Assembly (NCBI RefSeq): GCF_014202215.1
Contig: NZ_JACHGB010000004.1
Location: forward strand, 161,255 to 225,254
Length of the DNA: 64,000 bases
Direction of reading: 5' to 3'
From: Quisquiliibacterium transsilvanicum
Lineage (GTDB): Bacteria > Pseudomonadota > Gammaproteobacteria > Burkholderiales > Burkholderiaceae_E
Of the stretch, positions 1,837 to 22,348 are shown in pieces (positions within the stretch are counted from its first letter, which is position 1; each line of letters begins with the position of its first letter). The notes beneath the pieces were generated by a model. It saw nothing but the letters and a program-made list of their open reading frames with translations, ran no database searches and was not told the origin of the DNA. The position numbers and the translations under genes are program-made.

Positions 1837-4800
1837 ATGGCACTGTTCAAGACGAATGCGTTGTTGAATCACTGGTCGGTGTTTGATTCGGCGGGGACTG
1901 CGACGCAGTTTTGGAGTCGAATTACGTCGGGTGCGTACGCGACGAGTGATCAGCTGCGTCTGGAGCAGACGCCGATTGTGCGTTCGAGTTGGGCGGCGCT
2001 GGTTGATCTTGGTCAGCAGACGAATGCTTGGCTTGCGCGGGATAACGATGCGATCGTGTTCGCGAAGAACGCGAGTTTTCGGCTGGCGATCAAGAACGTC
2101 GAGTACGTGAGTGCGGCGCCGGGTTATACGGTCGACCTGCACCAGGTTTCGGTCCACGGCTTTACCACCGATGGTTCGTTCAGGTCGATCGAAGCTGGCG
2201 TGGGGAACCACGATATCCGCTTCGAGAACGCTTATCGAGACTCGGAGATCTTCCTGGGGCGGGGGATCGATCAGGTGACGCTGACGACGAACCCTGACAT
2301 TGTTGCGCAAGGCCAGGACACGTACTGGCTGACCAAGCGGTTCGGTGACAACTCGGTCCAGGCGTATTCGCTGTTCAGCGGCAACATCGTGCATCTGGTC
2401 GACGGTGCAGTCGCGTCGTACTCGACGGCCGATACGCGTGGCAATTACGGCGAGATCGAGACGGTTCAGTACCGGGATCGCAATAACAGCGTGGTGACCA
2501 AGCGTCTTGGTGACGGCGATCTTCCGAACAATGGGTCGCGCGGGGGCTTCGAGAATATCGATCTCAGTGATTATGTGCAGGACACCTACCTGGATTCGTT
2601 CCTGCACGCCAGTTTCGGGTCGATCAATTTCACGTCGAAGAATGTGTTCTTCGGCGCGGCGGTCATCGAGGACTGGTTCGACGACGAGGCGTCCCCGCAA
2701 GACGAGATCGAGAACCAGCAGTCGCAGGCGCTGAGGTGGTCGACGGTATCGGTGGCGGATGCGTTTCACAACCATGATCTGCTGGTGGCGCAGCAGTCCG
2801 ATGCGATCGACGGGCATCTGCGTGTGTACGTGCGCGATGAGGACTCGCGCGCGTACAACCGTTTCAATGAGGTGTACCTTGGTACGGCGGCGGGCGAGAG
2901 CGTAACGAGGACAGGGGCAAGTACGGCGGGTAACGGGCTGACGCTGTCGACGCCGCACGTGGCGCTGTATGGGTTCGGCGGTAACGATGAGCTGGTTGCG
3001 GGCTCGGGCTCGGACTATCTGTTCGGCGGCACGAGCAGTTACACGACGGCGCTGGTCGATGGTTCCGGGAACCTTGTGCTTGGCGGCAACCGGGTGACCG
3101 GGGGAGATGGCGCGGACTTTTTCGGTGTTGGAAACATCGGCGCTGGGTCGACGGGGGACGTGCTCATGACGAGCACGTTCGACAACACGCGGTTGGCGGG
3201 AGCCGCGCCGCTGGTTACGGACCCTGGCGGGAGACTGGCGCGTTCGGGGGCGGAGGAGATTGCGGACCTGGCGACGCGGGTGGCCACGGATGTGATCCGG
3301 GACTGGACAGCCGGGGTGGACTGGCTGCGAGTGCTGGCCAATGGCACGGCGGTGATCGAGGGTCTGGGAACCGCCGACGGTAGCGGGGCGGTCGGTTACG
3401 TGCGCGACGCGATTGGTTCCGACCCGGAGAAGATCGACCTCAGCGGCAACCGTGTCGTCAACGAAGGCAAGATCGTCGCCCGAGGCCTCGGCGGCAACGA
3501 CACCATCATCGCAAGCAGCGGCAGCGACTGGCTGTACGGGAACAGTGGTGACAACCTGGTGGTTGCAGGCGCCGTCACTGCCGGCGATGGTGCCGACCGT
3601 ATCTACTACGACACCTATGCTGGCCGGGTCTTCGCCACCGGCTTCGATGCAGGCGACAAGGTCTATCTCAACAAGAAGGTGTTGGAGGCCGTGACGGGCA
3701 CGATCATGCGCGGAACCGAGGCGGCGGACAACCTGACGGAAGCGTCGGTAACCCTGTCTGGCACCCCCGTTGCGGGACGGCAGACTTACACCGCCGCGGT
3801 TGCCTACGACCCTCAGATCAACTTTCTGCATGACGTGTTTTACGGTCCCAGTGGTGCGCTGCCTTCGAATCAGCAGCACGTTAACGGTCCCGGCTTTGTC
3901 GACGGCTCGGACTCGTATGCAGATGTCTCGACTGCAGCCATCGGTGCCGGCATGTTCGCTGCGGGTACAGCGCTGGTTGCAACGGGATTTCTCGCCGCGG
4001 CCGGCTATCCGCTAATCGCATCGGGTCTTGCGCTTGGCGCTGGCGGGATCGTGGGCGGTGTCTTGAACTGGACCATTCCACACCAGCATGCCACCTACAG
4101 TGGGAACATTGCGGACAACTTCCTCACGGTTCTGACTGCGCAGAATAACGTCGACACCACCGCTGCAACCGACGCTGCGAGCAATATCGACAACATCGGC
4201 CTGCTGAATTTCTTTCAGAGCGCGGATGCAGGAGACGGCTATGCGCCCGCGATTCAGTTTACGACCCTGAATCCGAGGCAGTCCATCAACCAGTTCATGG
4301 CGGTCCACTCGGATGAGGAGACGTTCATCTACTGGGTCTACTCGCGTGACGCGATCGTGACTGCGGGTGAGGCGATCAAGATCGCTGAAATCAACGGTCG
4401 TCTCTTTGCTGAGGACTTCGCGATCTACGATGGAGAACTGGATGTCTACAATTCCGCGACCCTGACGCCGATCACGATCTACACGCCGAGCCTAACGGCA
4501 GTTGGATACAGCAACAATGCTGACGACACGATAGAGACGTCGATCGCACAGGACGCCAAGGTTGTAGTTCCCGGCGGCGGGCGTTTCGTGCTCTCAGGAC
4601 AATTCTTTCGTTCGCTTGGTGAGAAGGAAAATCCTTTCACCACGGCGCAGGGGAGTGCCCTTGTCTCGGTCAGTTATGAAGGTCACGGGTTGTCGAATGG
4701 GGACTGGATCCAGATAACGGGAGCCGAGTCGGACAACGGCGTCGACTTCAACGGCGCCTACCAGATTTCGGGCGTCACGGCTGACACGTTTACGTTTACG

Positions 4801-7800
4801 GCCAACAAATTCACGGAGAGTATCGGTCTTGCTGGTGTGACTGCCGGGGTGGCAACGGTTGGCACGGCGAGCTTTGGCGTGCCCGGGAACATCAGCGCGG
4901 GCAGCACGATCAAGGTCTATGACGGCACCGATCGTCTCGACGCCGACCCCCTCACAGCCGCGGACGATGTATTCATCGGAGTCAATGGAAATACCTTCAC
5001 TCTGCGGGACACTCGGGGGCTCGGGACTTCTCTCACTCAATCGCCTGACGGGGTCGCGACGCTCGACGGCGCTGTCTTAAAGGATGGTCAGGGCAATCCT
5101 GCTTTCTTCACGATTATCTCGGGCCAGTCGTCCGTGACGGTCAATTACGGCAATCACGGAATGCAAGTGGGTAACTCGGTGGAGATCGTCGGTGCGACGG
5201 CTGCAGGTGGCATCGATTTCAACGGTGTCTGGGTCGTAACGAGCGCGAACGCCAACCAGTTTTCCTTCACCGCGGCGAGTACCGCAACGGTCACGCAAAG
5301 CGTCAATACCAATTTCAGTTTTACGTCGATTTCGGCGCCTGTCGTGGTCGCACAGGCTGACATCAATGGCGATGCTAACGGCGTTCTGACTGTCACCATG
5401 GCGAACCATGGAATGCTGAGCGGTGACGAGGTTACGTTCTCCTCTTCGTTCAATGTATCGAATTTCGTTTTCACGGCCGACGTCCCATACACCGTGACGC
5501 GAATCACCGACTCGCAGTTCAGCATCGTTTCTCAGGTGAACAACCTGGGCGGAACGACCACACCCGCCAGCGTCGTCTTCTCGGTCCCAAATGGTGGCAA
5601 CCAGACTTTTTTCCTGAGGGACGAGAAAGTTAGCTACTTCGTCGAAGTCACGAACGCTGACTCGGGCTTCGAGACGATGAGTCTCCAGTACGACTTCACC
5701 GTTGGGGGCGGTACCGCGACCCTGAACGGAGGGCGAGGCGACGATATGCTCGTGATTTCGGACGACAGTCCGGGTCTGAACGGAATGAGCGATCAGCAGA
5801 TCGTCAACCTCGAGACGATCCAGATCACGAATGACGTCTCCGCTCCCCTTGCACTCGACCTCTCTCGGCAGACGGACGGGTTCACCGTCTACGATTCGAG
5901 CGCCGGTAATGCGATTACCGGTTCGTTCGGTGATGACATCATCATCGGTGGCGGCGGTCTGGACAGCCTGGACGGCGGCGCCGGCCGTGACACGTTCGTG
6001 GTCTCCGCAGTTGCCGACTTCGTGGCCGGGGAGACGGTGACCGGTGGCTCCAACACGGGCGGCGTCGATACCCTCCGCCTGGATGCCGCGGGCACCTACG
6101 GTGCGAACTTGCTGAGCGCCAGCGTGACGGGCGTGGAGCTCATCTCCCTGAACCACAACGCCGCGGGTTTCGATCTCACCCTGGCCGACGGCGCCTACGT
6201 GGACGCCGATGCCAACGGGGACGGGACGGCCGACACGACGGTGACGGTGAATGCCGCGCTGGCGATGACGCACGGGATCAGGCTGACCGGCGGCGCCACC
6301 ACGGCCGGGCATCGCCTGGTGGTCGACGGCACGAACCTCGGCGGTGCCGACACGCTCGAGGGTGGTGCTGGCTCGGACACCATAAGCGGGGGCGGGGGCA
6401 ACGACACCATCAATGCCTTTCAGGGCGATGACGTGATCGATGGCGGTGCCGGCAACGACCGTCTGACTGGACATGATGGTTTGGACACCTTCCGGATCAC
6501 GTCGGGAACGGACACCATCACGGATCTAGGTCGCGGTGGTACCGACGATGTGATCATCAGCCAAGGGGCAAGCGTCATCGCCACGATCCATTCCGCATGG
6601 AGCGCTGATGGCGACACCGTTAACCTCGGCACGAACACCTACGCCAACGCCGACATTACGACGAATGGTCTTGCGGTAAACCTCAGCGGCGCCGCAGTAA
6701 GTACATCCGGCTCCGCGACGCAGGGTTACACCGTGACCAACACCGGAGGTGCCACCACCATCACGGGGTCGGCTGCCGCCGATTCCATCACGGGAGGTGC
6801 CGCTGACGACAGCCTCGTGGGAGGGGATGGCGCCGACACCATCAATGGTAGTGGCGGCAACGATACGCTCATCGGCGCCGAAGGCGCGGACAGGATCCTC
6901 GGCGGGGCGGGCAGCAACACGATCGTCGGCGGAACCGGCGCAGACACGATCATCCTGACGAGCGTCGCGAGTTACGACCTCTTGAAGATGGGTTCTGGCG
7001 ATGGTGGCGCACTCGGCGCTAATGACGGCTGGGACCTGGTTTCCGGATTCAGCGGAAATGGCGTGAACACTGATCTGGTCGAGATCACTGATTGGGTCGA
7101 TCGCGGTAACGGTGCGAATCTCGGCTACATGACGAGTTCCGTCGGTCTGAATAGCCCGGTGGAGGCGGTCGCGGAACTGCTCATCGTGACCGATTCGAGC
7201 GTATCGTCGATCAGCGGAGTGGAGTCCGCGATCCAGGGGGCCTACGATCTCACGGATTTGAACGACGGTACCGTCTTGTTCTCGGTGAAGGGTTCAGGTG
7301 CCAACGATTGGTGGCTTGGCACCTACAGCGACGCCGGTACTGATGACGCCACGTCGCTCAACGAGTTCCGAGTGCTTGCCGTTATCGAGGTGACCGGCGG
7401 CGGCTTCGATTACGATGATTTTTGGCAACCGGGTGTTCTCCTGGAGGTTCTGTCTGCTACGTTTGTTTCGGCTGCAACTGGAGTTCAAATAACGACGAAC
7501 AAGGCAGCAACGATCCGAATCGGGGGCACAAACGTCGACAATGCGGCCATTGCAGCTAATACCACCACAACAGTCCAAGAGCAGACGGTTGTCAGATATG
7601 GTGTTTTTTCAGTGATTGATGCTGGCGCCAGAGTTGTCACGGATCCCAGTGGATTCGTTTATGCGCTTGGAACGACCGCAGGCGACACGATTGGCGAAGT
7701 TGGCAACGGACCCTTCACTCCATTCGATGTCGCTTATGGCGGTCAGGGTAACGATATGATCGGATGGGCCAGGGGTGCCGGGCCTGGTGTCACTGTCCAT

Positions 7801-8433
7801 GGCGGTGATGGAGACGACAACTTCGACCCGGGAAATGACTTGGGTGACGACCGTCTGTACGGTGACGGAGGGGCCGACACGATCTACGGCGGCGGTGGTG
7901 CCGATGAAATTTATGGCGGCGCGGGCAACGACATCATTTACGGTGAATCCGGCAATGACGTTATCGTGGGGGGGCAAGGTGCAGACAAGCTGTTTGGGGG
8001 GCAGCAGTTTGGTGGCGTCGCTGGCGTCCCCACTGGCGTAGACGGGTTGGGTGACGATACTTTCGTGTTCCAGGCTGGTGACTCCGGGATCACCGTAGCA
8101 ACGGCGGACACGATTTACGATTTCAATGTCGATAGCAGCGACCGCTTGAGGTTAGGGCTGTCAGGCGATGGTACGGCGGGCACGGGTAACTACGTCGAGG
8201 CTGGGGGGGAGGTTACCGACTTCAACGCGGCACTGGCAGCGGCAAATATTGCCCTGGGCGCCCTGGGCGCATTGAACGACACTTCTCAAGCGTCGCAGCT
8301 GTATGCGTTCCAGTTCGACGCTTCCAATGGTTACTTGTTCATCGATTACAACTCGGACGGTACGGCGGACGAGGTCATCATCCTCGTCGGAGTAGACAAT
8401 ACGAAGATCGATGCAGCGAATGTAATCGCCTGA
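1837..8433 (+). CDS. Giant RTX-type calcium-binding protein, type I secretion substrate
   Basis: A 2198-residue protein without an N-terminal signal peptide. Gly/Asp nonapeptide motifs of the GGxGxDxxx type occur near residues 382-396 and 552-574, then in clear blocks near 1357-1390, 1507-1550, 1642-1707 and 1967-2053 (for example GGAGNDIIYGESGNDVIVGG). Such repeats bind calcium and fold after export. Three related beta-rich segments near residues 939, 1101 and 1184 share an H-G-x-x-x-G core, and the first two also share D-F-N-G. Residues about 701-743 form a long Ala/Gly hydrophobic stretch, unusual for a secreted protein. The C-terminus (about 2054-2198) lacks repeats and ends in hydrophobic residues, as in type I signals. 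An AGAGAGAGA purine stretch sits before the ATG. Probable surface layer protein, adhesin or large RTX exoprotein; no enzymatic domain was recognised. Confidence 0.85.
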   Translation: MALFKTNALLNHWSVFDSAGTATQFWSRITSGAYATSDQLRLEQTPIVRSSWAALVDLGQQTNAWLARDNDAIVFAKNASFRLAIKNVEYVSAAPGYTVDLHQVSVHGFTTDGSFRSIEAGVGNHDIRFENAYRDSEIFLGRGIDQVTLTTNPDIVAQGQDTYWLTKRFGDNSVQAYSLFSGNIVHLVDGAVASYSTADTRGNYGEIETVQYRDRNNSVVTKRLGDGDLPNNGSRGGFENIDLSDYVQDTYLDSFLHASFGSINFTSKNVFFGAAVIEDWFDDEASPQDEIENQQSQALRWSTVSVADAFHNHDLLVAQQSDAIDGHLRVYVRDEDSRAYNRFNEVYLGTAAGESVTRTGASTAGNGLTLSTPHVALYGFGGNDELVAGSGSDYLFGGTSSYTTALVDGSGNLVLGGNRVTGGDGADFFGVGNIGAGSTGDVLMTSTFDNTRLAGAAPLVTDPGGRLARSGAEEIADLATRVATDVIRDWTAGVDWLRVLANGTAVIEGLGTADGSGAVGYVRDAIGSDPEKIDLSGNRVVNEGKIVARGLGGNDTIIASSGSDWLYGNSGDNLVVAGAVTAGDGADRIYYDTYAGRVFATGFDAGDKVYLNKKVLEAVTGTIMRGTEAADNLTEASVTLSGTPVAGRQTYTAAVAYDPQINFLHDVFYGPSGALPSNQQHVNGPGFVDGSDSYADVSTAAIGAGMFAAGTALVATGFLAAAGYPLIASGLALGAGGIVGGVLNWTIPHQHATYSGNIADNFLTVLTAQNNVDTTAATDAASNIDNIGLLNFFQSADAGDGYAPAIQFTTLNPRQSINQFMAVHSDEETFIYWVYSRDAIVTAGEAIKIAEINGRLFAEDFAIYDGELDVYNSATLTPITIYTPSLTAVGYSNNADDTIETSIAQDAKVVVPGGGRFVLSGQFFRSLGEKENPFTTAQGSALVSVSYEGHGLSNGDWIQITGAESDNGVDFNGAYQISGVTADTFTFTANKFTESIGLAGVTAGVATVGTASFGVPGNISAGSTIKVYDGTDRLDADPLTAADDVFIGVNGNTFTLRDTRGLGTSLTQSPDGVATLDGAVLKDGQGNPAFFTIISGQSSVTVNYGNHGMQVGNSVEIVGATAAGGIDFNGVWVVTSANANQFSFTAASTATVTQSVNTNFSFTSISAPVVVAQADINGDANGVLTVTMANHGMLSGDEVTFSSSFNVSNFVFTADVPYTVTRITDSQFSIVSQVNNLGGTTTPASVVFSVPNGGNQTFFLRDEKVSYFVEVTNADSGFETMSLQYDFTVGGGTATLNGGRGDDMLVISDDSPGLNGMSDQQIVNLETIQITNDVSAPLALDLSRQTDGFTVYDSSAGNAITGSFGDDIIIGGGGLDSLDGGAGRDTFVVSAVADFVAGETVTGGSNTGGVDTLRLDAAGTYGANLLSASVTGVELISLNHNAAGFDLTLADGAYVDADANGDGTADTTVTVNAALAMTHGIRLTGGATTAGHRLVVDGTNLGGADTLEGGAGSDTISGGGGNDTINAFQGDDVIDGGAGNDRLTGHDGLDTFRITSGTDTITDLGRGGTDDVIISQGASVIATIHSAWSADGDTVNLGTNTYANADITTNGLAVNLSGAAVSTSGSATQGYTVTNTGGATTITGSAAADSITGGAADDSLVGGDGADTINGSGGNDTLIGAEGADRILGGAGSNTIVGGTGADTIILTSVASYDLLKMGSGDGGALGANDGWDLVSGFSGNGVNTDLVEITDWVDRGNGANLGYMTSSVGLNSPVEAVAELLIVTDSSVSSISGVESAIQGAYDLTDLNDGTVLFSVKGSGANDWWLGTYSDAGTDDATSLNEFRVLAVIEVTGGGFDYDDFWQPGVLLEVLSATFVSAATGVQITTNKAATIRIGGTNVDNAAIAANTTTTVQEQTVVRYGVFSVIDAGARVVTDPSGFVYALGTTAGDTIGEVGNGPFTPFDVAYGGQGNDMIGWARGAGPGVTVHGGDGDDNFDPGNDLGDDRLYGDGGADTIYGGGGADEIYGGAGNDIIYGESGNDVIVGGQGADKLFGGQQFGGVAGVPTGVDGLGDDTFVFQAGDSGITVATADTIYDFNVDSSDRLRLGLSGDGTAGTGNYVEAGGEVTDFNAALAAANIALGALGALNDTSQASQLYAFQFDASNGYLFIDYNSDGTADEVIILVGVDNTKIDAANVIA

Positions 8434-9780: not shown

Positions 9781-9840
9781 CGCGGTTCTCGGGACGACGG
9801 CTGTTTTGTCGACGAGCGTGTCGCCCGTACACTTGACGAC

Positions 9841-12297: not shown

Positions 12298-12321
12298 CAC
12301 CTGCGATTCCTTCTGGCCAAA

Positions 12322-12359
12322 GGCCCCGACGGTTCACGCCGTCGGGGCCTTCTTCTTTG
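12322..12359 (+). terminator. Strong rho-independent terminator
   Basis: GGCCCCGACGG (12322-12332) pairs perfectly with CCGTCGGGGCC (12339-12349) around a 6-base loop, followed by TTCTTCTTT. It ends the DUF4160/DUF2442-HTH transcript. Confidence 0.9.
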
Positions 12360-12584
12360 TGCGCCCGGCACGGGCGCCCCCTCTGTCAGGATAGATGTCG
12401 CCCCGATAGGAACCGATAAACCGGGGGCGACGATGAGGCGAGGAAGTGGCGCGATACGGACAAGCATTCAGGGATCTAGTGGTGACGAGGCTGTTGCCCC
12501 TCTTCGCCGATCAGCTGGATCCGGTCCTGCTCCGCGCTGAATTCGGTGGTGAAGCGGGTCAGTGTGGTCATGGGCGCCGGTGGT

Positions 12585-13388
12585 TCAGGCCCCGCCAAAG
12601 CTGATGGTGCCGTTCTGCTCCATCAGCTCCAGCGCCGCGCCTTCGCTGCCGGCGTTCTCCGCCGGGGCGGACGGTTCGGTTGGCTTTCGCCATTGCGCGT
12701 GCAGTTGCGCCAGCCGGCCCAGGATCTTCAGGTGCTGGAGCGACAGCAGCTGCGCGTAGGCCACGCCCACGGCCCCCATCCCGTGAAGCCGGTGCAGGGT
12801 CTCTGCGCCCAGGGCCTTGAGCCGATCCTCGTCGATCCGGTGCAGGCCCTGCAGGCTGATCTCCCGCCCGCCGTCCTTGACCGTCAGCGGCCAGGGGATG
12901 ATCAGGCGTTCCTCGGCCAGGGCATCGCAGATCCGCTGGGTTGCCTGCCGGTCGGCGCGCACTTTCTGCAGGAAGACGAAGACCTCCTGCAAGGGCTTCG
13001 CCGGCGTGCCGTCGGCGTCGAAGAAGGGTTCGCCCTCGGTGTCGCCGATCAGGCCGCTGTCCGCATCCACGCAGAGCACCGCCTGCCCGTCCGGGGTGTC
13101 GGCCAGCGCGAACGGATGGCCGCGGTAGGCGGCAGGCACGTAACCGCCGAGCCAGCGGCCGTCGGGCGCCACGAAGAGGTTCCGGCCGCCTTGCAGGCCT
13201 TGAACGGCCACGGGCGTGAAGTGGCCGTCGAGCTGCAGGAAGGCCACCGGGAAGTGCGGGCAGGCGGCCGGCATTTCCTGTGCCACCAGTGTGGCTGCGG
13301 TGTCGCCCGCGGCGAATGCATAGCCGTCGTAGCGTTTCCAGCGTTTTGCGCCGTGGGTGTCGGGTGAAACAGGCTGATGCTTGGGCAT
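12585..13388 (-). CDS. SapC family protein
   Basis: A 267-residue protein of the SapC family, recognised by F-P-V-A-F-L-Q-L-D-G near residue 50, N-L-F-V-A-P-D-G-R-W-L-G-G-Y-V-P-A-A-Y-R, then L-C-V-D-A-D-S-G and E-P-F-F-D-A-D-G. SapC was first named in the Campylobacter fetus S-layer secretion locus beside a type I exporter, but its activity is not known. There is no signal peptide, so it is probably cytoplasmic or peripheral. It is the last gene of a minus-strand group with a glycosyltransferase and a methyltransferase, divergent from the type I secretion operon. That context supports a role in surface protein export or modification. Confidence 0.85.
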   Translation of the reverse strand: MPKHQPVSPDTHGAKRWKRYDGYAFAAGDTAATLVAQEMPAACPHFPVAFLQLDGHFTPVAVQGLQGGRNLFVAPDGRWLGGYVPAAYRGHPFALADTPDGQAVLCVDADSGLIGDTEGEPFFDADGTPAKPLQEVFVFLQKVRADRQATQRICDALAEERLIIPWPLTVKDGGREISLQGLHRIDEDRLKALGAETLHRLHGMGAVGVAYAQLLSLQHLKILGRLAQLHAQWRKPTEPSAPAENAGSEGAALELMEQNGTISFGGA

Positions 13389-13436
13389 GGTCGCTTGTCT
13401 TGGTGAGTATTGCGCGCGCCTGCGGCGCGCGGGAGG

Positions 13437-14684
13437 TCAGGCGGCAAGCGTGCGGATCCAGTCGATCTGGCGGGGCAGGCACACCGACTTCAGGTCATAG
13501 CTTCGCTGCGCGAACAGACGGGCGTTGCGCCCGAGCCGCTCGCGGTCTTCGGGGCTCTCGAGCAGCCGGCACACCGCATCCGCAAGGCCCGGCACGTCGA
13601 AGAAGTCCACCAGCCGTCCGGTCTCGTCGTGCCGGATGGCCTCCCTTAGCGGCGCGGTGTCGCTGGCCACGATGGCGCAGCCCGCGCTCATCGCCTCCAG
13701 CAGGCTCCAGGACAGCACGAAGGGATAGGTCAGGTAGACGTGCACGGTGGAGAGCTGCAGCAGCGGCACGAACTGCTGGTAGGGGATGTTGCCGAGGAAG
13801 TGCACGCGCGCCCAGTCGGCTTCGGGGATGCGCGGTCTCACCTCTTCGCTGAGGACGTCCCGCCACCTGGTGCTGCCGTACCGCTCTTCGCTGGGCGGCG
13901 CGCCGTAGCTCACGTCGTTGCCGCCCACGATGAGCACCCGGGCATTCGGGCGGCGCCTCAGGATCTCGGACAGCGCCCGCATGAACACGTGGTAGCCGCG
14001 GTAGGGCTCCAGGTTGCGGTTGACGAAGGTGATGACCTCGTCAGGCCGGCTCAGCGCCAACCGGCCCTTCAGTGTCAGCGTGACGTCCGGCTGCGGGGCG
14101 ATGAGGTCGGTGTCGATGCCGTCGTGCACCACCGTGATGCTGGACCGGAAGGGCTCCGGGAAGGTGCTTGCCTGCCACTGGGTGGGGCTGATGCCGCCGT
14201 TCGCCAGGCCGAAGTGGAGCAGGTTGTTGAGGTTCTTCAGTCGAAGGCGGCAGGCCTCGCCTTCGGGGTCGCGCGCCGCGAACTCCGGGTCGAAGCCGAC
14301 GTCCGCGCCGGATGCCCGATAGAAGAACTCGCAGTAGATGCCCATCCTGGCCTGGGGCCACACGTCCTTCAGGAACAGGCTCTCCCCCCAGCCGTGGTGC
14401 GCGACGATGACGTCCGGGGTGAAGCCGGCGGCCCGCATCTCCAGGGCCTTCCGGAAGCAGGCTTCGCCGCGGATCGCTTTCGTCTCGAAGTCCGAAACCC
14501 AGGGGTGGACGTTGGCCGTCGAGCCCCGGCGTACGCCGTAGGGGAAGAGCCGCACACCCTCCCAGCGGTCGGCTCCGGTGTGCCGCAGGGTCATGGCGGC
14601 CACGTCGTGCCCCTGGCGCACCAGGGCGGGCGCCAGGTGCTTGAACTGGCCGGGGAAGTTCTGGTGGACGAAGAGGATGTTCAA
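13437..14684 (-). CDS. Glycosyltransferase, family 4 type (GT-B fold)
   Basis: A 415-residue glycosyltransferase. The start TTG at 14684 gives the usual beginning N-I-L-F-V-H-Q-N-F-P-G-Q-F of this subfamily. Upstream codons in frame look like shadow sequence and overlap the neighbouring gene. The C-terminal nucleotide-sugar domain (residues about 215-400) has NRNLEPYRGYHVFMRAL, a phosphate-binding V-L-I-V-G-G-N-D and the E-x7-E-like P-F-V-L-S-W-S-L-L-E-A-M-S-A-G-C motif. It is cytoplasmic; donor and acceptor are unknown. Together with the adjacent methyltransferase and the secretion genes it could glycosylate the secreted surface protein or build a surface glycan. Confidence 0.85.
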   Translation of the reverse strand: MNILFVHQNFPGQFKHLAPALVRQGHDVAAMTLRHTGADRWEGVRLFPYGVRRGSTANVHPWVSDFETKAIRGEACFRKALEMRAAGFTPDVIVAHHGWGESLFLKDVWPQARMGIYCEFFYRASGADVGFDPEFAARDPEGEACRLRLKNLNNLLHFGLANGGISPTQWQASTFPEPFRSSITVVHDGIDTDLIAPQPDVTLTLKGRLALSRPDEVITFVNRNLEPYRGYHVFMRALSEILRRRPNARVLIVGGNDVSYGAPPSEERYGSTRWRDVLSEEVRPRIPEADWARVHFLGNIPYQQFVPLLQLSTVHVYLTYPFVLSWSLLEAMSAGCAIVASDTAPLREAIRHDETGRLVDFFDVPGLADAVCRLLESPEDRERLGRNARLFAQRSYDLKSVCLPRQIDWIRTLAA

Positions 14685-14745
14685 GGGATTCGGCGGAGAG
14701 TGGGCGGTTGTCAGGATCAGCGCGCAGGGCCGGGCGGGGCTGCGC

Positions 14746-15345
14746 TCACCTCGGAAAGTGCTGGCGTACGAGATTGCCGGCCGTTTCCTGATCGAGTTCG
14801 GCCTTGCTGGCGAGCGCCCATAGATCGAAGGCCTTGGAACGGGCGAGCGTGGCCACGCTGCGGAACCCCGCCGCGCGAAGCTCCCCTGCCAGCACGCGGC
14901 GGGTGAAACCGCAGCGATGCGCCATGTAGGTGTTGCCCCGGGCAAGGGCGGCCCGATGGCCGTAGACGATGTCGATCGGTGCGATCGGGCCGGCGGGCGA
15001 CGTGTATGCCGGGTCGACCAGTTTGTCCTGGGCGATCAACGCGCATACCGATTGCAGATCGGGGCAGGTGATGACCGCAAATCCGTCTTCCGTCAGCACC
15101 CGTGTGAACTCCGCCAGGGCGATCGGCACCTCGTGCGGGTACAGATGCTCGATGTTGTGGCTGGAGAAGACCGCGTCGACGCTGCCGCTGGGCACGCCCG
15201 CCATGTCGGTCATCGAGCCTGTGATGTCAGGCTGCACGCGCGCGTCGATGTCCAGGCGAATCTCGGTCCAGTCCGGTGAGTTGAATCCCGGGGTGGTTCG
15301 GTCCTTGCGCTTCGGGCCGCAACCAACGTGTAGGAATTTCGGCAT
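14746..15345 (-). CDS. SAM-dependent methyltransferase, class I
   Basis: A 199-residue protein starting M-P-K-F-L-H-V-G-C-G, where V-G-C-G is the SAM-binding motif I placed unusually close to the N-terminus. An acidic motif II (E-I-R-L-D-I-D-A) and F-S-S-H-N-I-E-H-L-Y follow, as in class I methyltransferases of the type 11 group. The start at 15345 has a good AGGGGA ribosome site. The substrate is unknown. It is the first gene of the minus-strand group with the glycosyltransferase 61 bp downstream, so sugar or glycoprotein methylation is plausible. It reads divergently from the TnpB-like/secretion operon across a 119-bp gap. Confidence 0.8.
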   Translation of the reverse strand: MPKFLHVGCGPKRKDRTTPGFNSPDWTEIRLDIDARVQPDITGSMTDMAGVPSGSVDAVFSSHNIEHLYPHEVPIALAEFTRVLTEDGFAVITCPDLQSVCALIAQDKLVDPAYTSPAGPIAPIDIVYGHRAALARGNTYMAHRCGFTRRVLAGELRAAGFRSVATLARSKAFDLWALASKAELDQETAGNLVRQHFPR

Positions 15346-15464
15346 TGATGTCGTCCCCTGCACTGAATCCGACCGTTCGCGCCGGGTGCTCGCCGTCGCG
15401 AACGGCGAAGGCAATCATGAATCGGCACTTAAGTCACGAACACTAGTGTATACTGGATTCATAT
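15346..15464 (+). promoter_or_regulatory. Divergent control region with three symmetric sites
   Basis: Between the methyltransferase and the secretion operon lie CCGTTCGCG (15373-15381) and its exact reverse complement CGCGAACGG (15397-15405), the 8-bp palindrome CACTAGTG (15441-15448), a good -10 box TATACT (15449-15454), and the 14-bp palindrome ATTCATATATGAAT that overlaps the start codon (15457-15470). With this -10 the transcript would begin within a few bases of the ATG, giving a leaderless message. The symmetric sites are candidate operators. No convincing -35 box was found. Confidence 0.55.
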
Positions 15465-16094
15465 ATGAATTCCATGATTCGGGTTTCCTTGGAGACAACG
15501 CCGCAGCAGGCCGCGCGCCTTTCGGCCTTGCGGACCCTGTTCGCGCAGGTCTGCAACGAACTGGCGCCGCACGTGCAGCGCACGCGTGTCTGGAACCGCG
15601 TGGCGCTGCATCACGCGCACTACCGGCAATTGCGCGAGAAGTTCCCCGCACTGGGATCGCAGATGGTCTGCAATGCCATCTACGCGGTGAGCAAGATGGC
15701 GCGGCTCGTCTATCAGAGCCCTGCCAGCCCCTACAACCTGAACCGTATCGGGCGGGGCAGGCTGCCGCTGCTGCGCTTCTCAGAGTCCTGTCCGGTGTAC
15801 TTCGACAGCCATACGCTGAGCATTCGCCAGGGGCGTCTTTCGCTCTACACACTCGACGGTCGTATGCACTTTCATTTGACGCTGGCACCTTCGGTGCTGG
15901 AGACGTTCTCGCGGGCGCGGCTCCGGGAGATCTTCCTCAGCCAGCGCCCTGGCGGGGTCTTCGAGCTGGTGTTCGTGCTGTTGGGAGGTGCCACGATGCA
16001 GGTGTTTGTCGAACCTGCGGCCCCGGTTCGCGCGTCCACGGCACCCGTCGCTGCGGCCATCCCGGATTACCTGATCGTCGAGGAGCCCGCATGA
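15465..16094 (+). CDS. TnpB-derived protein lacking the RuvC nuclease domain
   Basis: A 209-residue protein. Residues 4-80 match the N-terminal helical/REC-like region of IS200/IS605-type TnpB: V-C-N-E at 29-32, a W-N-R-V-A-L-H-H-x2-Y-x2-L-R-E-K-F block at 43-60 and S-Q-M-V-C-N-A-I-Y-A-V at 65-75. Residues about 100-165 match the following beta-rich (WED-like) part, with Y-F-D-S-H-T-L-S at 112-119 and L-S-L-Y-T-L-D-G-R at 125-133. The frame then ends in a Pro/Ala-rich tail; the D-L-G-type RuvC motif and zinc ribbon are absent, so it cannot cut DNA. It overlaps the first ABC exporter gene by 4 bases, with GAGGAG ahead of that start, and so belongs to the secretion operon. DNA- or RNA-binding regulation is inferred. 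An alternative start is ATG 15474. Family assignment is from recalled motifs. Confidence 0.65.
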   Translation: MNSMIRVSLETTPQQAARLSALRTLFAQVCNELAPHVQRTRVWNRVALHHAHYRQLREKFPALGSQMVCNAIYAVSKMARLVYQSPASPYNLNRIGRGRLPLLRFSESCPVYFDSHTLSIRQGRLSLYTLDGRMHFHLTLAPSVLETFSRARLREIFLSQRPGGVFELVFVLLGGATMQVFVEPAAPVRASTAPVAAAIPDYLIVEEPA

Positions 16095-17842
16095 AGGCGG
16101 CTGGCGAGGTTTCGGAGCTGCGGGCGGCTGCGCTGGACATGCGCCCGATGTGGCGCATGGGGTTGCTGCTGAGCGGGGCGATCGGTCTGCTGGGTTTTGC
16201 CTCGACCGTCTACATGTTCCAGGTGTACGGTCGGGTGGTCGACAGCCGCAGCGTGACGACGCTGTTGATGCTCACCCTGGCGACCACGGCCGCCTTCGCC
16301 GTGATGGAGCTCCTGGACAAGCTCAGGCAGCGGCTGTTCTGGGCAGGTAGTCTGCGGTTCGACCTGCGGATGACTCCGCGGGTCTACCAGGCGTCGATGG
16401 GCGTTCTGGCGAGCGGCAGACCCCACTCGACATCCCGGGTGATGTCGGACATGCGAAGCGTGCGGGAGTTCTTCGTGAATCCGGCGCTCACCGCGCTCTT
16501 CGAGCTGCCGATGTCGCTGCTGGCGCTCGTGCTGATCTTCATGATCAGCCCCGTGCTGGGTTGGGCGGCGCTCTTCGGTGGTGCGCTGCAGACGCTGGTG
16601 GCGTGGATGAACCAGCGAATCTCCCGCGCTCCGCTTCAGGAAGCGCAGCGCGGCGCCCAGGAGGCGCACCGCTATGCGGACGTAACGCTGCGCAACGCGC
16701 AGGTGATGCACTCGATGGGCATGCTCGAGTCGGTGCTTCGGCGCTGGCAGGAGCGGCAGTCCCGCTTCCTGGTCAGCCAGGCCAGGGCGTCCGAGGCGGC
16801 CGGCGCGCTCACCGCGGCCTCCAAGACACTGCAACAGCTGATGGGCTCGGTGCTGCTCGGCCTGAGCGCCTGGCTCCTGCTGGGCAACAACCTTGCAGGA
16901 GGGCCGGCGATGCTGATCATCAGCTCGGTGCTGGGCGGACGCATGCTGGTCCCCTTGACGCAGCTGGTGTCGCAGTGGAGCGCCATCGTCACCTTCGCTG
17001 GCGCCTTCACGCGGCTGGAGGGTCTGCTGCGTGAGATCCCGGCGCGCGATCGGTCCATGCCGTTGCCGCCGCCCAAAGGCGAGCTCAGGGTGGAGCAGTT
17101 GCACGTCGCGCCGCTGGGCCTGCAGCAGCTGGTGCTCCGCGGGCTGCAGTTCCACTTGACGCCTGGGCAGGTGCTGGCGGTCGTCGGCCCGTCGGCCTCG
17201 GGCAAGACCTCCCTGGCCAAGGCGCTGCTGGGCGCGTGGCCGGCGCAGGCGGGCAAGGTGAGGCTGGACGGCGTCGACGTTTTCTCCTGGGACAAGGACG
17301 AGCTCGGGCCGTATCTGGGCTACCTACCCCAGGAAGTCGAGCTGATCGACGGCACCCTGGCCGAGAACATCGCGCGCTTCGGGCAGCCGGACGCGCTGAA
17401 GCTCCAGGAGGCAGCGGCCTTGGTGGGGCTGCAGGAATTCATCGCGTCCCTGTCACAAGGCTACGACGCTCCGGTGGGGCGCGACGGTGCGCTGCTCTCG
17501 GGCGGCCAGCGCCAACGGGTGGCGCTTGCGCGCGCGCTGTACGGGCGCCCGGCGCTGGTCGTGCTCGACGAGCCGAATTCCAGCCTGGACGAGATCGGCG
17601 AGGCCGCGCTGCTGAGGGCGATCGGGGTCTTGAAGTCGACCGGCACAACGTTCGTCATCAATACCCATCGCACCGGCGTCCTGTCGGTGTCCGACCGCCT
17701 GCTCGTCCTGCGCGAGGGCGCGCAACTGGCGTTCGGCCCCACGGTGGAAGTCCTGCAGAAGCTGCGCGATCCGTCCGGCGCCGGAGGGCAGGCGGCTGCG
17801 CCCGCGACGGCGCCGCGAATGCTCCAGGGAGGCACGGCATGA
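16091..17842 (+). CDS. Type I secretion ABC exporter subunit 1 (PrtD-like)
   Basis: A 583-residue permease-ATPase half-transporter of the PrtD/RsaD type. It has no N-terminal peptidase C39 or C39-like domain. Transmembrane helices lie between residues about 20 and 310 (LLLSGAIGLLGFASTVYMF first). The ATPase domain has Walker A G-P-S-A-S-G-K-T near residue 367, signature LSGGQRQRVALARALYG and Walker B A-L-V-V-L-D-E-P-N. It powers export of C-terminally tagged substrates from the cytoplasm through the HlyD/TolC-type partners downstream. It is coupled to the TnpB-like gene upstream and overlaps the second exporter gene by 4 bases. The D-loop reads S-S-L-D-E, normal for an active site. Confidence 0.93.
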   Translation: MKAAGEVSELRAAALDMRPMWRMGLLLSGAIGLLGFASTVYMFQVYGRVVDSRSVTTLLMLTLATTAAFAVMELLDKLRQRLFWAGSLRFDLRMTPRVYQASMGVLASGRPHSTSRVMSDMRSVREFFVNPALTALFELPMSLLALVLIFMISPVLGWAALFGGALQTLVAWMNQRISRAPLQEAQRGAQEAHRYADVTLRNAQVMHSMGMLESVLRRWQERQSRFLVSQARASEAAGALTAASKTLQQLMGSVLLGLSAWLLLGNNLAGGPAMLIISSVLGGRMLVPLTQLVSQWSAIVTFAGAFTRLEGLLREIPARDRSMPLPPPKGELRVEQLHVAPLGLQQLVLRGLQFHLTPGQVLAVVGPSASGKTSLAKALLGAWPAQAGKVRLDGVDVFSWDKDELGPYLGYLPQEVELIDGTLAENIARFGQPDALKLQEAAALVGLQEFIASLSQGYDAPVGRDGALLSGGQRQRVALARALYGRPALVVLDEPNSSLDEIGEAALLRAIGVLKSTGTTFVINTHRTGVLSVSDRLLVLREGAQLAFGPTVEVLQKLRDPSGAGGQAAAPATAPRMLQGGTA

Positions 17843-19548
17843 GCGCGAGCACGGCAGCGCCGCCCGATCGAGCCGAACCTGCGGCTGCGCCCGACAATCC
17901 GCTCCAGTCGGCAGTCATGCGATTCCGCCGGGAGTTCATGGTCGTCGGCGTGTTCAGCATGGTGGTCAACCTGCTGATGGTCACTCCCACGCTCTACCTG
18001 CTGCAGGTTTACGATCGTGTGCTGAGCAGCATGAACGCGCTCACGCTGGCGGTGGTGTCCGTCATCACGCTGCTTCTCTTCGCGGTGATGGCCTTCGCTG
18101 AGTGGGCGCGCTCGCGCTTGCTCGTCCGCGTGGGCGTGCGACTGGACCAGGCGCTTGGCGAGCGGGTCTTCCGGGCCAGCTTTCTCTCCTACCTGAATCC
18201 CGCCGAGACCGAGCCCTCCCGGGCCTTCGGTCACCTGATCACGCTGCGCCAGTTCATGACCGGCAACGGCGTGTTCGCGTTCTTCGACAGCCCTTGGGTG
18301 ATCTTCTACCTCGCGGTGCTCTGGCTGCTGCATCCGGTGCTTGGAATCGTCGCGCTGTGCTTCGCGCTGGTCCAGACACTTGCGGCCTGGGCTGGCCATC
18401 GGATCAGCCGTCAGACGGTCCAGGTGTCGACCCGGGCTCAGGCGCGCACCCAGTCCTTCCTGGAGGGGAAACTGCGCAACGTCGAGGCTCTGACTGCGAT
18501 GGGGATGGTCTCGGCGCTGTTCACGCGATGGCAGTCCCTTCATCACGACGGGCTCCTCAAGGCGGGTGAGGCGCAGCAGCGAAGCGGCGCCGTCAACGCG
18601 TTCAGCAAGTTCCTTCGTCACACCCAGCAGGCGATGAGTCTCGGGGTGGGCGCCTGGCTGGTCGTCCAGGGGGAATTGACGCCGGGCGCGATGATCGCAG
18701 CCAATGTGCTGATGACGCGGGCGCTGGCGCCGATCGATCTGCTGGTGTTCGGCTGGCCAGGTTTTATCGCCAGCCGAGAGGCCTGGGGGCGTCTGGCAGA
18801 ACTGCTGCGGAACGCGCCGCCGGTGTCCGAGCGCCATCTTCCGGAGCGGCCGGCCGGCCGCCTGGAGGCCCGGGCGCTGACCGTACGCGTGCCGGGCCGG
18901 GAACGGCCTGTGCTCGAGGACGTCGATCTCAGCCTGTCGCCCGGCAGCGTGACGGTGGTGATGGGCGCCTCTGGATCGGGCAAGTCGACGCTGGCCCGTT
19001 GCCTGCTCGGCATCGGGCCGAAGGCCGACGGACAGGTGCTGCTCGATGGCGAGCCGGTGAGCCGATGGTCGCGTGAATCGCTTGGCGTGCACGTCGGGTA
19101 CCTGCCGCAGGACATCGAACTGTTCGACGGCACCGTCGCAGAGAACATCGCCCGAATGGGGCCCGTCGATTCCGAGCGCGTCGTGGCGGCCGCGCAGGCG
19201 GCCGGGCTGCACGGGATGATCCTGCGGCTGCCTAAGGGCTACGACACCCCCCTGGGAAGCGCCGCCGGCTTCCTTTCCGGGGGCCAGCGTCAGCGCGTGG
19301 GTCTTGCGCGCGCGCTGTACGGAAACCCGGCGCTGGTCGTGCTGGACGAGCCCAATGCAAATCTCGACGACGAGGGCGAGAAGGCCCTTCAGGCAGCAGT
19401 GGCCCGGCTTCGGGCGCAGGGCAGGACCGTGCTGCTGATCAGCCATCGGCAAGGGGTGCTCTCGCTGGCTGACCGTCTGCTGATCCTCGCTCATGGCAGG
19501 GTGGTGGCGAGCGGCCCGCGTGACGAAGTGCTGGCCGGAATGCGGTGA
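17839..19548 (+). CDS. Type I secretion ABC exporter subunit 2 (PrtD-like)
   Basis: A 569-residue half-transporter related to, but clearly different from, its neighbour. Transmembrane helices span residues about 35-300; the ATPase domain has Walker A G-A-S-G-S-G-K-S-T near residue 376, signature LSGGQRQRVGLARALYG and Walker B L-V-V-L-D-E-P-N-A-N-L-D. All catalytic motifs look intact. The start ATG at 17839 follows GGGAGG and overlaps the stop of subunit 1. Two different adjacent ABC subunits feeding one adaptor and one channel suggest a heterodimeric exporter, as described for the RtxB/RtxE pair of Vibrio MARTX secretion. Two separate homodimers remain possible. Confidence 0.93.
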   Translation: MSASTAAPPDRAEPAAAPDNPLQSAVMRFRREFMVVGVFSMVVNLLMVTPTLYLLQVYDRVLSSMNALTLAVVSVITLLLFAVMAFAEWARSRLLVRVGVRLDQALGERVFRASFLSYLNPAETEPSRAFGHLITLRQFMTGNGVFAFFDSPWVIFYLAVLWLLHPVLGIVALCFALVQTLAAWAGHRISRQTVQVSTRAQARTQSFLEGKLRNVEALTAMGMVSALFTRWQSLHHDGLLKAGEAQQRSGAVNAFSKFLRHTQQAMSLGVGAWLVVQGELTPGAMIAANVLMTRALAPIDLLVFGWPGFIASREAWGRLAELLRNAPPVSERHLPERPAGRLEARALTVRVPGRERPVLEDVDLSLSPGSVTVVMGASGSGKSTLARCLLGIGPKADGQVLLDGEPVSRWSRESLGVHVGYLPQDIELFDGTVAENIARMGPVDSERVVAAAQAAGLHGMILRLPKGYDTPLGSAAGFLSGGQRQRVGLARALYGNPALVVLDEPNANLDDEGEKALQAAVARLRAQGRTVLLISHRQGVLSLADRLLILAHGRVVASGPRDEVLAGMR

Positions 19549-19622
19549 TACGGGGCGGCGGCGCGCACGCCGTCCGGTCGCTTGAAGCCACAGAAGGACA
19601 TCGAACAGGATTGGGTCGATTC

Positions 19623-21005
19623 ATGAACCAGATGAACACTGCCGGAACTGCGGCGCAGCTTCAGTCCGCGAAAGCCGGAGAGACGCTCGCGGATCCGCAG
19701 CGGCTCCTGCAGCGATACGCCGACACAGGCGGCGTAGTGCGGATGGGACTCGGCGTGCTTGCGCTGGCCGTCGGGGGCTTCGTCCTGTGGGCGGCGCTCG
19801 CGCCGCTCGACGAAGGCGTTCCCACCCCGGCCACGGTGGCCATCGACACCAAACGCAAGGCGGTGCAGCACCTGAGCGGCGGAATCGTCAAGGAGGTGTT
19901 GGTGCGCGAGGGCGACCAGGTGGACCAGGGCCAGGCGCTGGTGCGGCTGGACGAGGCCGTCAGCCGCGCGAATTTCGAGGCGGTGCGCCAGCGCTATTTC
20001 GGTCTGAGCGCGATGCACAGCCGGCTGCTGGCTGAACAGGTCAGCGCTGCCGGGATCGCTTTCCGCGACGATGTCTTGCGCGCCGCGCGGGAAGATTCCT
20101 ACCTGGCGCAGCAACTGGACACCCAGCGGCAGTTCTTCAGGACACGACGGCAGGGGCTCGAGGCGGAGTTGCAGAGCGTGCGCGAATCGGTGGAGGGCCA
20201 GCGCGCGCAGCGCGAGGCGGCGCGGCAGATGATGACCCAGCGCCAGCGGCAGCAGTCGCTGCTGCAGGAGGAACTGGACAAGCTGCGCGGGCTGGTTGCG
20301 GAAGGTTATGCCCCGCGCAATCGCCAGCTCGAGCTGGAGCGCCAGATGGCGGACCTGCACGCGGCGCAGGCCGATCTGCGGGGCACGATCGAGCGCGCCA
20401 CTCGGACGATCGCCGAGCTTGAACAGCGCGTGCTCGCGCGCCGGGCCGACTTCCGCAAGGAGGTTGGGGCACAACTCGCCGATGTCGCGCGCGAGGTCCA
20501 GGCCGACGCTGAAAAATACACCGCGGTCAGCAACGAGCTGCGGCGTGTCGATATCGTGGCCCCGGCTGCCGGCCAGGTGGTGGGGCTCGCAGTGCAGACC
20601 GTTGGCGCCGTCGTGCAGCCCGGGCAGAAGCTGATGGACATCGTGCCGAGAGAGCAGGAACTGCTGCTGGAGGCGCAGATCGCCCCGCACCTGATCGACA
20701 AGGTCGCGCCCGGCCTGCCGGCCGACATCCGCTTCTCTGCCTTCACGCACTCGCCGCAACTGGTCGTCGAAGGCAGGGTGGTGTCGGTGTCCGGAGACCT
20801 GTTGGCCGATCCGGCCAACCCGCAGTTCAGCTACTTCCTGGCGCGGCTGCGGGTCACGCCCGAGGGAATGCGGGCGCTCGGTGGCCGGCAGATGCAGCCC
20901 GGCATGCCGGCCGAGGTGATCATCCGGACCGGCGAGCGCTCGATGCTGACCTATCTGCTCGGCCCCCTGACTCGTCGCATCGCGGCGTCGATGAAGGAGG
21001 AATGA
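19623..21005 (+). CDS. Type I secretion periplasmic adaptor (HlyD family)
   Basis: A 460-residue membrane fusion protein: a short cytoplasmic N-terminus, one transmembrane helix near residues 40-63 (MGLGVLALAVGGFVLWAAL), a lipoyl/barrel segment (QHLSGGIVKEVLVREGDQV), a long coiled coil (about 110-300) rich in Gln, Arg and Glu, then the returning lipoyl half (V-D-I-V-A-P-A-A-G-Q-V-V-G-L) and beta-barrel. It links the inner-membrane ABC exporter to the outer-membrane channel. ATG 19623 was chosen because AGGA precedes it and the family starts with a short cytoplasmic tail; a GTG at 19545 overlapping the upstream stop is an alternative. Confidence 0.93.
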   Translation: MNQMNTAGTAAQLQSAKAGETLADPQRLLQRYADTGGVVRMGLGVLALAVGGFVLWAALAPLDEGVPTPATVAIDTKRKAVQHLSGGIVKEVLVREGDQVDQGQALVRLDEAVSRANFEAVRQRYFGLSAMHSRLLAEQVSAAGIAFRDDVLRAAREDSYLAQQLDTQRQFFRTRRQGLEAELQSVRESVEGQRAQREAARQMMTQRQRQQSLLQEELDKLRGLVAEGYAPRNRQLELERQMADLHAAQADLRGTIERATRTIAELEQRVLARRADFRKEVGAQLADVAREVQADAEKYTAVSNELRRVDIVAPAAGQVVGLAVQTVGAVVQPGQKLMDIVPREQELLLEAQIAPHLIDKVAPGLPADIRFSAFTHSPQLVVEGRVVSVSGDLLADPANPQFSYFLARLRVTPEGMRALGGRQMQPGMPAEVIIRTGERSMLTYLLGPLTRRIAASMKEE

Positions 21006-22348
21006 GGATGCACTGCACCCTGCGCGGAGTACGCGCCCTGTTGGCCATGCTCGCCCTGGCGCTGCCCGGGGCGGCCTCCGGGACGAGCCTGCAGCAGGCC
21101 TTCCTGCGCGCGCTGGAGCACGACGCGGGGCTCAGGGCTTCGCGTGCCGGCCTGGAGTCCAGCCGCGAGCGGGTTCCCCAGGCGCGCGCCCAGTTGCTAC
21201 CGCAGGTTCAGGCGAGCTGGGGGCGCAATTTCAACGACCTGACGACCACCTCGACTGCGAGCGCAGGCCCTGCGGCGCGCGCCGAGAGCAGCTACTACAG
21301 CTACAGCGCGAGCCTGTCGGTGCGCCAGCCCCTGTTCAACCTGCAGCGCTACCGGAACCTGCAGCAGGCCAACTCGCTGGTCGTGGAAGCGGAGTCCGGC
21401 TTCGAGAAGGCGAGAGCCGACCTCCTGGTACGGCTCGCAGGGGCCTACATGGAGGCGCTCTTCGCCCGGGAGCAGCTCCGCTTCGCGCTTTCGCAGCGGG
21501 AACAGTTGCGGGTGGTTCTGGATGCGGCGCGCAAGGCCCTGGCGGCGGGCAGCGGCACCCGCACCGATGTGGACGATGCCCAGGCCCGGCTGGACCAGGC
21601 GCTGGCCGACGAACTCGATGCACGCCAGGCTTTGGACTTCTCGGATCGTCAGTTGCATCTCCTGACCGGACAGCCGGCATCGGAGCTACCGGCGCTGCGC
21701 CCGCAGGCGCTGGCGCGGCTGCCCGTCGACACAAGTCCGCTCGAGCAGTGGATCGCGCAGGCGCAGCGGGTCAACCCGGAGGTGCACGCTCTCCAGGCTC
21801 GCCTCGAGGCGGCGCAGCGCGAGGTGGACAAGGCTCGGGCGAGTCATGCGCCCACGCTCGAAGCCGTGTTGCAGTGGAGCGATAGCGCCAACGACAATGT
21901 CGTCAGCCTCAATCGCCGCTTCGAGAACCGCGCCGTGGGGGTCCAGCTCGTGGTTCCGCTCTATCAGGGCGGCGCAGTGCAGTCGCAGGTCCGGCAAGCG
22001 CTGGCCGAGCTCGAACGCGCCACGGAGACGCTGGAGGACCGGCGCCGCCAGATCGCGCTCGAGGTCCATCGAGAGCATCGCGGCGTCACCGGGGGCGAGT
22101 CGCGCATCCGGGCGCTGGAGCAGGCGGTCCGCTCGGCGCAGACTCAGGTGCAATCCACGCGGCAGTCCCGCAAGGCCGGCGTGCGTACGGTGCTCGACGA
22201 GCTTGACGCCGAGCAGCGGCTGTCACGGCTGGAGCGTGACCTGGCTCAGGCTCGCTATCTGTACCTGATGTCGTCGGTGCGTCTTCAGACCCTGGCAGGG
22301 CGCGAGCCGCTCGAGGTGGTTGCCGACGTGTCCCGCATCTTCGATTGA
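21002..22348 (+). CDS. Outer-membrane channel of type I secretion (TolC family)
   Basis: A 448-residue outer-membrane efflux protein. An N-terminal signal peptide (residues about 1-28, A-L-L-A-M-L-A-L-A-L-P-G-A-A-S-G) is followed by the two-fold repeated helical/strand units of the TolC family (S-L-Q-Q-A-F-L-R-A-L-E-H-D near the start, V-P-L-Y-Q-G-G in the middle). Length is normal. The start overlaps the adaptor stop by 4 bases, completing a five-gene unit from the TnpB-like gene to this channel. It provides the exit duct for the secreted surface proteins. Confidence 0.93.
   Translation: MRMHCTLRGVRALLAMLALALPGAASGTSLQQAFLRALEHDAGLRASRAGLESSRERVPQARAQLLPQVQASWGRNFNDLTTTSTASAGPAARAESSYYSYSASLSVRQPLFNLQRYRNLQQANSLVVEAESGFEKARADLLVRLAGAYMEALFAREQLRFALSQREQLRVVLDAARKALAAGSGTRTDVDDAQARLDQALADELDARQALDFSDRQLHLLTGQPASELPALRPQALARLPVDTSPLEQWIAQAQRVNPEVHALQARLEAAQREVDKARASHAPTLEAVLQWSDSANDNVVSLNRRFENRAVGVQLVVPLYQGGAVQSQVRQALAELERATETLEDRRRQIALEVHREHRGVTGGESRIRALEQAVRSAQTQVQSTRQSRKAGVRTVLDELDAEQRLSRLERDLAQARYLYLMSSVRLQTLAGREPLEVVADVSRIFD

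Follow-up and report, generated by a model that had tools for sequence, protein, structure and literature searches.

A TnpB-derived protein without a nuclease domain leads a conserved type I secretion operon and is probably its autorepressor

What does a TnpB-like protein that ends before its nuclease domain do at the head of a type I secretion operon? Exapted TnpBs and dead Cas12s, to our knowledge, retain the RuvC fold and use a guide RNA for gene silencing. The gene that raises the question, called tnpB′ here, lies in a 64,000-nt stretch of Quisquiliibacterium transsilvanicum DNA (the window), in which the type I secretion set of ABC, membrane fusion and TolC-type proteins is complete. The genes concerned are as follows.

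15465..16094, plus strand: tnpB′-like gene with an ATG start, encoding a 209-aa stand-alone TnpB REC lobe (WED + REC) without RuvC
15465..15980, plus strand: region of TnpB WED/REC homology, about residues 1-172 (7-172 by tblastn, 1-178 by hhalign)
16062..16085, plus strand: conserved C-terminal tail past a variable linker (PDYLIVEE here, PEYVMVEE in the family)
16091..17842, plus strand: ABC exporter 1 (ABC1; PF00005, PF00664), with an ATGA overlap with tnpB′
17839..19548, plus strand: ABC exporter 2 (PF00005, PF00664)
19623..21005, plus strand: HlyD-type membrane fusion protein (PF13437), start codon uncertain
21002..22348, plus strand: TolC-type outer-membrane factor (PF02321)
1837..8430, plus strand: 2198-aa open frame with RTX repeats (PF00353, E 1.3e-45)
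12585..13388, minus strand: SapC-family gene (PF07277, E 5.7e-64), between the RTX frame and the exporter

The sequence-only reading had proposed that the product is the N-terminal half of TnpB (helical region plus WED-like region), ending where RuvC should begin. Both tblastn and profile-profile comparison bear this out. When plasmid records were searched by tblastn (E up to 10), 35 records were matched; 26 are annotated as transposase or TnpB and only two were better than 1e-5. The best match (38.7% identity, E 3e-20, query residues 7-172) is a TnpB gene of Methylomarinovum (L086), which is located directly behind an IS200/IS605 tnpA. When the family profile was compared with that of TnpB, the probability was 99.9% (E 3e-34), and a full-length TnpB, L103, was recovered by the family profile at E 7e-40. 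The profile-profile alignment spans family residues 1-178 and profile columns 5-177, which correspond to L103 residues 1-170. It therefore stops before the RuvC-I aspartate, which is residue 181 of L103. The open reading frame ends before RuvC-I, and RuvC with its D/E/D triad and the TNB zinc finger are absent from the product. In the accessible part of PMC10097598, ISDra2 TnpB is divided into WED (residues 1-12 and 117-176), REC (13-116) and RuvC (from 185). With these limits applied to the matched region, we assign the remaining part to the REC lobe. Eight TnpB relatives were tested; all eight pass NF040570 (guided TnpB) and carry OrfB/TNB families, L094 being under the OrfB cut-off. Judged by sequence comparison, the TnpB homology of the 209-aa protein is firm.

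Domain libraries gave little. Scanned alone, the 209-aa protein matched nothing significantly in Pfam, NCBIfam, PADLOC, PHROGs or PDB sequences, and no family member was better than E 0.076 in the Pfam scan. In the NCBIfam scan of 66 members, TIGR01765 (transposase N-terminal domain) was touched by four (best E 0.048) and NF010501 (putative anti-sigmaE protein) by 24 (best E 0.0011). The score of the window protein against NF010501 (11.7 bits) is far under the cut-off (225), and we took these matches to be chance. Because TIGR01765 matched 0/150 genomes of the phylum, it was of no use as a source of TnpBs; among 21 relatives, PF01385 was found in two distant TnpBs.

It had also been proposed that tnpB′ is translationally coupled to the ABC exporter and wired into the secretion operon. 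In the window, the open reading frame at 15465-16094 overlaps the exporter start by ATGA. A survey of homologues in genomes chosen one per species yielded 169 loci, of which we kept the best 80; by record titles these are mostly Comamonadaceae and other Burkholderiales, with a few Thauera. Among these best 80 of 169 loci, an ABC exporter is the next gene in 79 (the exception, L029, has 71 bp left) and tnpB′ overlaps the next gene by ATGA or GTGA in 69. Every locus that extends at least 6.3 kb downstream (62 loci) has the order tnpB′-ABC-ABC-HlyD-TolC. Thus, the synteny with type I secretion genes is conserved, and the gene is fixed in the operon. In distant genomes the operon is re-ordered, with TolC ahead of tnpB′ in L123, L124 and L128 and a single ABC gene in L125; in all six distant loci that were cut out, an ABC gene follows tnpB′. 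Near tnpB′ in the window are methyltransferase, glycosyltransferase and exporter genes, and the context in the 79 loci is the exporter, not tnpA.

The exported cargo is likely the 2198-aa RTX frame. SapC is linked to surface-layer export elsewhere. An insertion element, presumably IS66, is located at window 9034-11412, between the RTX gene and the SapC and secretion genes. The NpdA/nanopod surface layer was considered as cargo and rejected: NpdA is described in the available part of PMC10765051 as a signal-peptide protein tied to a type II system, and the part of PMC3110197 at hand contains no mention of such an exporter. The genome of the window encodes a second exporter ATPase (G000:C7:123021-124700, 46% identical to ABC1), which is distant from that genome's only tnpB′ match and only operator place. 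At window 43716-46153 there are three tandem genes with a nearly identical prepilin-like N-terminus, GFTLVELSVVVLIAGLLLMAVMKG; judging from this shared N-terminus, they are apparently pilin-type duplications.

Proteins of the family are 194-225 aa long in the best 80 of 169 loci. They consist of a conserved core, a variable linker and the tail P-E-Y-V-M-V-E-E; the pattern P.Y..[VLMI] is present within the last 25 residues in 80/80 of these loci. We aligned 65 of the best 80 loci with the window protein after near-copies had been removed by eye, and many residues are invariant across these 66 members. For 52 close pairs (same length, 75-97% DNA identity, codons 3-172), the median omega was 0.075. 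These values indicate a conserved family under purifying selection rather than debris. The family profile matched 16 of 399 genomes of the order: eight contain the truncated form, six TnpBs (those of G310 and G441 are cut by contig ends) and two only small proteins of the L109/L110 type. In the phylum sample it matched 3/398, the own genome included, and one of these matches is a full-length TnpB (L122). A tree of 54 rows was built from every second row of the alignment (33 of 66), seven distant rows from type I secretion (T1SS) loci and 14 TnpBs. The 40 T1SS rows form one side of a branch with support of 100/99, and they join seven TnpBs (L103, L086, L122, L104, L113, L105 and L106) at 98/96; several outer TnpBs are long branches. 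The tree suggests that the tnpB′ family is apparently of single origin. Of the family profile, only the helical REC part (positions 11-69) is matched by the small proteins or stretches at L109:1480-1740 and in L110 (minus-strand ORF 1492-2307, in its C-terminal part), at E 3e-6 and 2e-5 per genome. There are no secretion genes within the short loci read, and we set these proteins aside as family members. They may be a still smaller REC-like family, or chance matches.

The region ahead of the gene contains conserved operator-like sites. When the 70 nt ahead of the start codon were aligned, the motif TTCCTATATGAA was found over the start codon. In most loci its reverse complement, TTCATATAGGAA, is located about 33 nt upstream, with a -10-like TAnnnT in between. 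At one mismatch or less, TTCATATAGGA is present between -200 and +40 in 81/81 sequences, as compared with 15/4050 shuffled sequences. Two or more sites are present in 73 of the 81, the window's overlapping palindrome being counted as two. The arrangements are 55 inverted pairs (window included), seven back to back, five triple, six tandem and eight single. The spacing is 26-28 nt in 44 of 59 site pairs, a set that omits the overlapping pair of the window. The window differs in that it has one palindromic site instead of the usual pair.

15458..15469, no strand: operator-like palindrome TTCATATATGAA spanning the start codon; it consists of two TTCAT in inverted orientation, separated by 2 bp
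15449..15454, plus strand: -10-like TATACT, which would place the transcription start at the ATG or close to it

This palindrome is the only TTCMTATAKGA place in its genome. A second perfect palindrome, ACACTAGTGT, is found at window 15440-15449, directly before the -10-like element. A -10-like TAnnnT (at least four of the six bases of TATAAT, positions -24 to -7) is present in 77/81 loci versus 17% in shuffles, and the SD-like 4-mers AGGA, GGAG, GAGG and AAGG at -16 to -5 in 0/81. Because of these -10-like positions and the lack of SD-like 4-mers, the operon probably has a leaderless mRNA, and its core promoter would be covered by the sites. Among seven distant T1SS members read (L082, L083 and L098-L102), sites are close ahead of the gene in L082, L083, L098 and L101. 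In L102 a site lies upstream of TolC and 1680 nt upstream of the GSQM helix codons. L099 and L100 have no site close before the gene; in the genome of L100 the sites are further up, before TolC (L124), and those of L128 are likewise before TolC. In G356 (L099/L123) the gene is present, but no site was found at one mismatch or less in 8.5 kb, nor an exact match genome-wide. Because sites also stand before TolC and away from the start codon, the objection that ATGAA merely reflects the start codon is answered.

Whole genomes were then searched with TTCMTATAKGA. The 20 genome entries chosen for tnpB′ are 19 distinct genomes (G446 and G832 are one). Eighteen of the 19 have sites, G356 being the one without, and by coordinates all sites are at the tnpB′ operon except for one more place in G829 (TTCCTATAGGA). 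With the reversed control pattern, five matches were obtained in the 20 entries. As control genomes we used 11 of the same family with an ABC1 homologue (E 1e-100 or better) and no tnpB′ match. TTCATATAGGA or TTCCTATATGA was found in 0/11 of them, G004 and G043 being only 57% and 62% complete; one, G025, has one TTCATATATGA. In nine further genomes, G310 has one exact site, G363 has one TTCCTATATGA, six have none, and G441 has 3 + 3 matches versus 5 + 3 for the control pattern. The G310 and G363 sites are near no T1SS gene in the stretches read. The G310 site, an exact TTCATATAGGA at L141:3269-3279 (G310:C36:10768), is intergenic, and the gene after it is presumably gltX; this genome has TTCAT-TAM TnpBs, and the profile search of it found no tnpB′-T1SS form. 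Thus, the sites are conserved over the operon's own promoter and are operon-specific, with G356 and G829 as exceptions. Apart from the exceptions named above, G310 and G363 included, genomes have site and gene either both or not at all, which is what an operon-specific regulator would lead one to expect.

Since some near TnpBs are encoded in multicopy elements, their target motif can be read from element junctions. At the junctions, the flanks differ up to TTCAT and then agree (TTCAT-AGAA), in six copies in G239 (boundary give or take one base), two in G363 and two in G310. These are six of seven copies in G239 (L105 has other sequence there), two of three in G363 (L114 runs into N) and two of three in G310, whose third copy, L115, also reads TTCATAGAA at its left end. 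L122 has the same left end, once, and no TTCATAGAA left end was found within 900 bp of the near TnpBs L103 and L086. In IS200/IS605-type elements, the TAM is located 5′ of the left end. We infer that TTCAT is the TAM of near full-length TnpBs in these three genomes and, from these relatives, that of tnpB′. The first five bases of the operator TTCATATAGGA are TTCAT. Because shuffled 11-mers of the same make-up contain TTCAT on either strand in 3.6% and at the edge in 0.5%, this match alone is not proof. ISDra2 TnpB has the TAM TTGAT and binds the TAM duplex through WED and REC (PMC10097598, accessible part). The TAM-contacting tyrosine is kept (Y53). The position of the TAM-reading Q80 of ISDra2 is Cys in 11/11 T1SS rows and in 5/5 same-branch TnpBs, for two of which (L105 and L106) the TAM was read directly; it is V, Q or I in six other TnpBs. 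ISDra2 K76 and F77 fall in an alignment gap.

The sequence-only reading had also suggested a DNA- or RNA-binding regulator of its own operon. Regulation by binding to upstream DNA gains strong indirect support from the operon-specific 11-mer over the promoter, which includes the TAM of the relatives. We propose that the tnpB′ protein is probably an autorepressor of its own T1SS operon that retains TAM recognition but no longer has the nuclease. One half of a TTCAT-TAM TnpB, the half that reads DNA, would have been freed from the nuclease half and become a dedicated repressor of the operon. WED and REC would read double-stranded TTCATATAGGA, that is, the old TAM TTCAT plus six new bases. Bound to the copies that lie over the start site and upstream of the -10, the protein would block RNA polymerase, and no guide RNA would be needed; autorepression fits the positions of the sites. 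Expression of its own, probably leaderless, mRNA and of the exporter genes would stay low as long as the repressor is not titrated. The sensor or docking piece would most likely be the conserved C-terminal tail, which follows a variable linker and is encoded beside the exporter. Its conservation may point to a partner, the simplest candidate being the exporter, with whose gene tnpB′ overlaps. More tentatively, and with somewhat less than even confidence, the protein could represent a new class of RNA-free transcription factors, in which a TnpB/Cas12-type REC lobe serves as the DNA-binding domain, the TAM as the operator, and the exporter titrates or exports the repressor through its tail; secretion capacity would then set its own expression.

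These sites could be read in another way, namely by an RNA-guided, TldR-like repressor whose REC lobe carries a small guide RNA with a seed that pairs with ATAGGA after TTCAT. The site layout, TAM plus six bases, does resemble TAM plus seed, and a figure legend in the accessible part of PMC13418256 gives the TldR seed as nucleotides 1-6. Were ATAGGA a seed target, a guide carrying it would be expected. However, a search in cis for ATAGGA found none on the sense strand outside the operator in 59/62 long operons, and none on either strand in 34/62 loci. An Rfam scan of 12000-23000 gave three matches, all under the gathering score. The 3′ end of tnpB′, where an omega RNA would overlap in a TnpB gene, overlaps ABC1. 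The flanks of paired sites speak on both sides. Inverted pairs within a locus (60 rows, window included) agree beyond expectation at positions 12, 14 and 15 (41, 26 and 24 of 60; expected 25.6, 15.5 and 16.3), and at or below chance at positions 13 and 16-23. By reasoning, the excess at positions 24-26 arises at least in part because the two readings begin to overlap there. The 15 pairs in the same orientation agree at positions 12-20 only at chance level (1 to 6 of 15). Because these pairs are at chance, the shared part of two sites ends six bases after the TAM, and the excess in inverted pairs seems to reflect an extended dyad rather than a guide target in common. Moreover, RuvC is gone, whereas in ISDra2 the RNA scaffold is held by WED and RuvC, and the heteroduplex by WED, REC and RuvC (PMC10097598, accessible part). 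A guide might still be encoded at a distance and match the site over six bases only. We regard RNA guidance of the tnpB′ product as unlikely on this evidence and favour the protein-only reading.

The 11-mer might also be bound by a regulator encoded elsewhere, the REC lobe being, for example, an exporter adaptor that acts through its tail. The tail conserved in 80/80 and the ABC gene that follows in 79/80 of the best 80 of 169 loci are consistent with such an adaptor. When a regulator has essentially a single target operon in each genome, though, its gene usually lies next to that operon, and among the operon's products only that of tnpB′ descends from a nucleic-acid-binding protein. Both site and gene are missing from 11/11 control genomes, and the site contains the TAM of related TnpBs. 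We consider a separate regulator quite unlikely. That tnpB′ leads a coupled operon, with ATGA or GTGA overlaps in 69 of the best 80 of 169 loci, would also suit a translation-coupling leader or a decaying transposon remnant whose protein has no function. This is hardly credible for a single clade across several families with a median omega of 0.075 and many invariant residues over 66 members, and we disfavour it. The preferred reading is still that the protein itself would bind the sites and that this binding would repress the operon.

The tnpB′ family can be compared with several known systems. It has about 170 residues of WED + REC sequence in common with TnpBs of IS200/IS605 (L086 from Methylomarinovum, L122, L103, L104 and ISDra2), and the helix motif G(S/A)Q.xCN with TnpBs of the same branch. 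In contrast to them, it has neither RuvC nor TNB, no tnpA or element ends were noted, and it is fixed in a host operon. Classical operon autorepressors have operon-specific sites over the core promoter, as seen here, but the DNA-binding part of the tnpB′ protein would, by homology, be a TnpB REC lobe. The Campylobacter sap locus is an RTX/S-layer type I secretion locus. Like such loci, of which the Caulobacter rsaA region is another (PMC10765051, accessible part), the window has ABC-HlyD-TolC genes, an RTX protein and SapC nearby; unlike them, it has two ABC genes and a TnpB-derived first gene. As with TldR (PMC13418256, accessible part), a TnpB has been exapted, here likely as a repressor, and tied to a surface system, and a TAM-containing site, with the TAM taken from relatives, is in the promoter concerned. 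However, according to the same part of that source, TldR still contains a RuvC domain, in mutated form, and has a guide RNA. The tnpB′ product lacks RuvC altogether, and the cis search for ATAGGA revealed no candidate guide in 59/62 long operons. Among accessible papers no RuvC-less TnpB regulator is described, a weak negative because most subscription papers were outside the search. What is new here is the operator-like TTCATATAGGA in 81/81 promoters, containing the TAM of the relatives.

Evolution seems to have split the TnpB machine and kept only TAM reading, as a protein-DNA code. This makes it testable whether a TAM/PAM-recognition module alone is a sequence-specific DNA-binding protein. 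If our proposal is true, the family would provide a small natural TAM-reading domain, useful for engineering, and tnpB′ would be the regulator for a surface-protein exporter that is found in many Burkholderiales.
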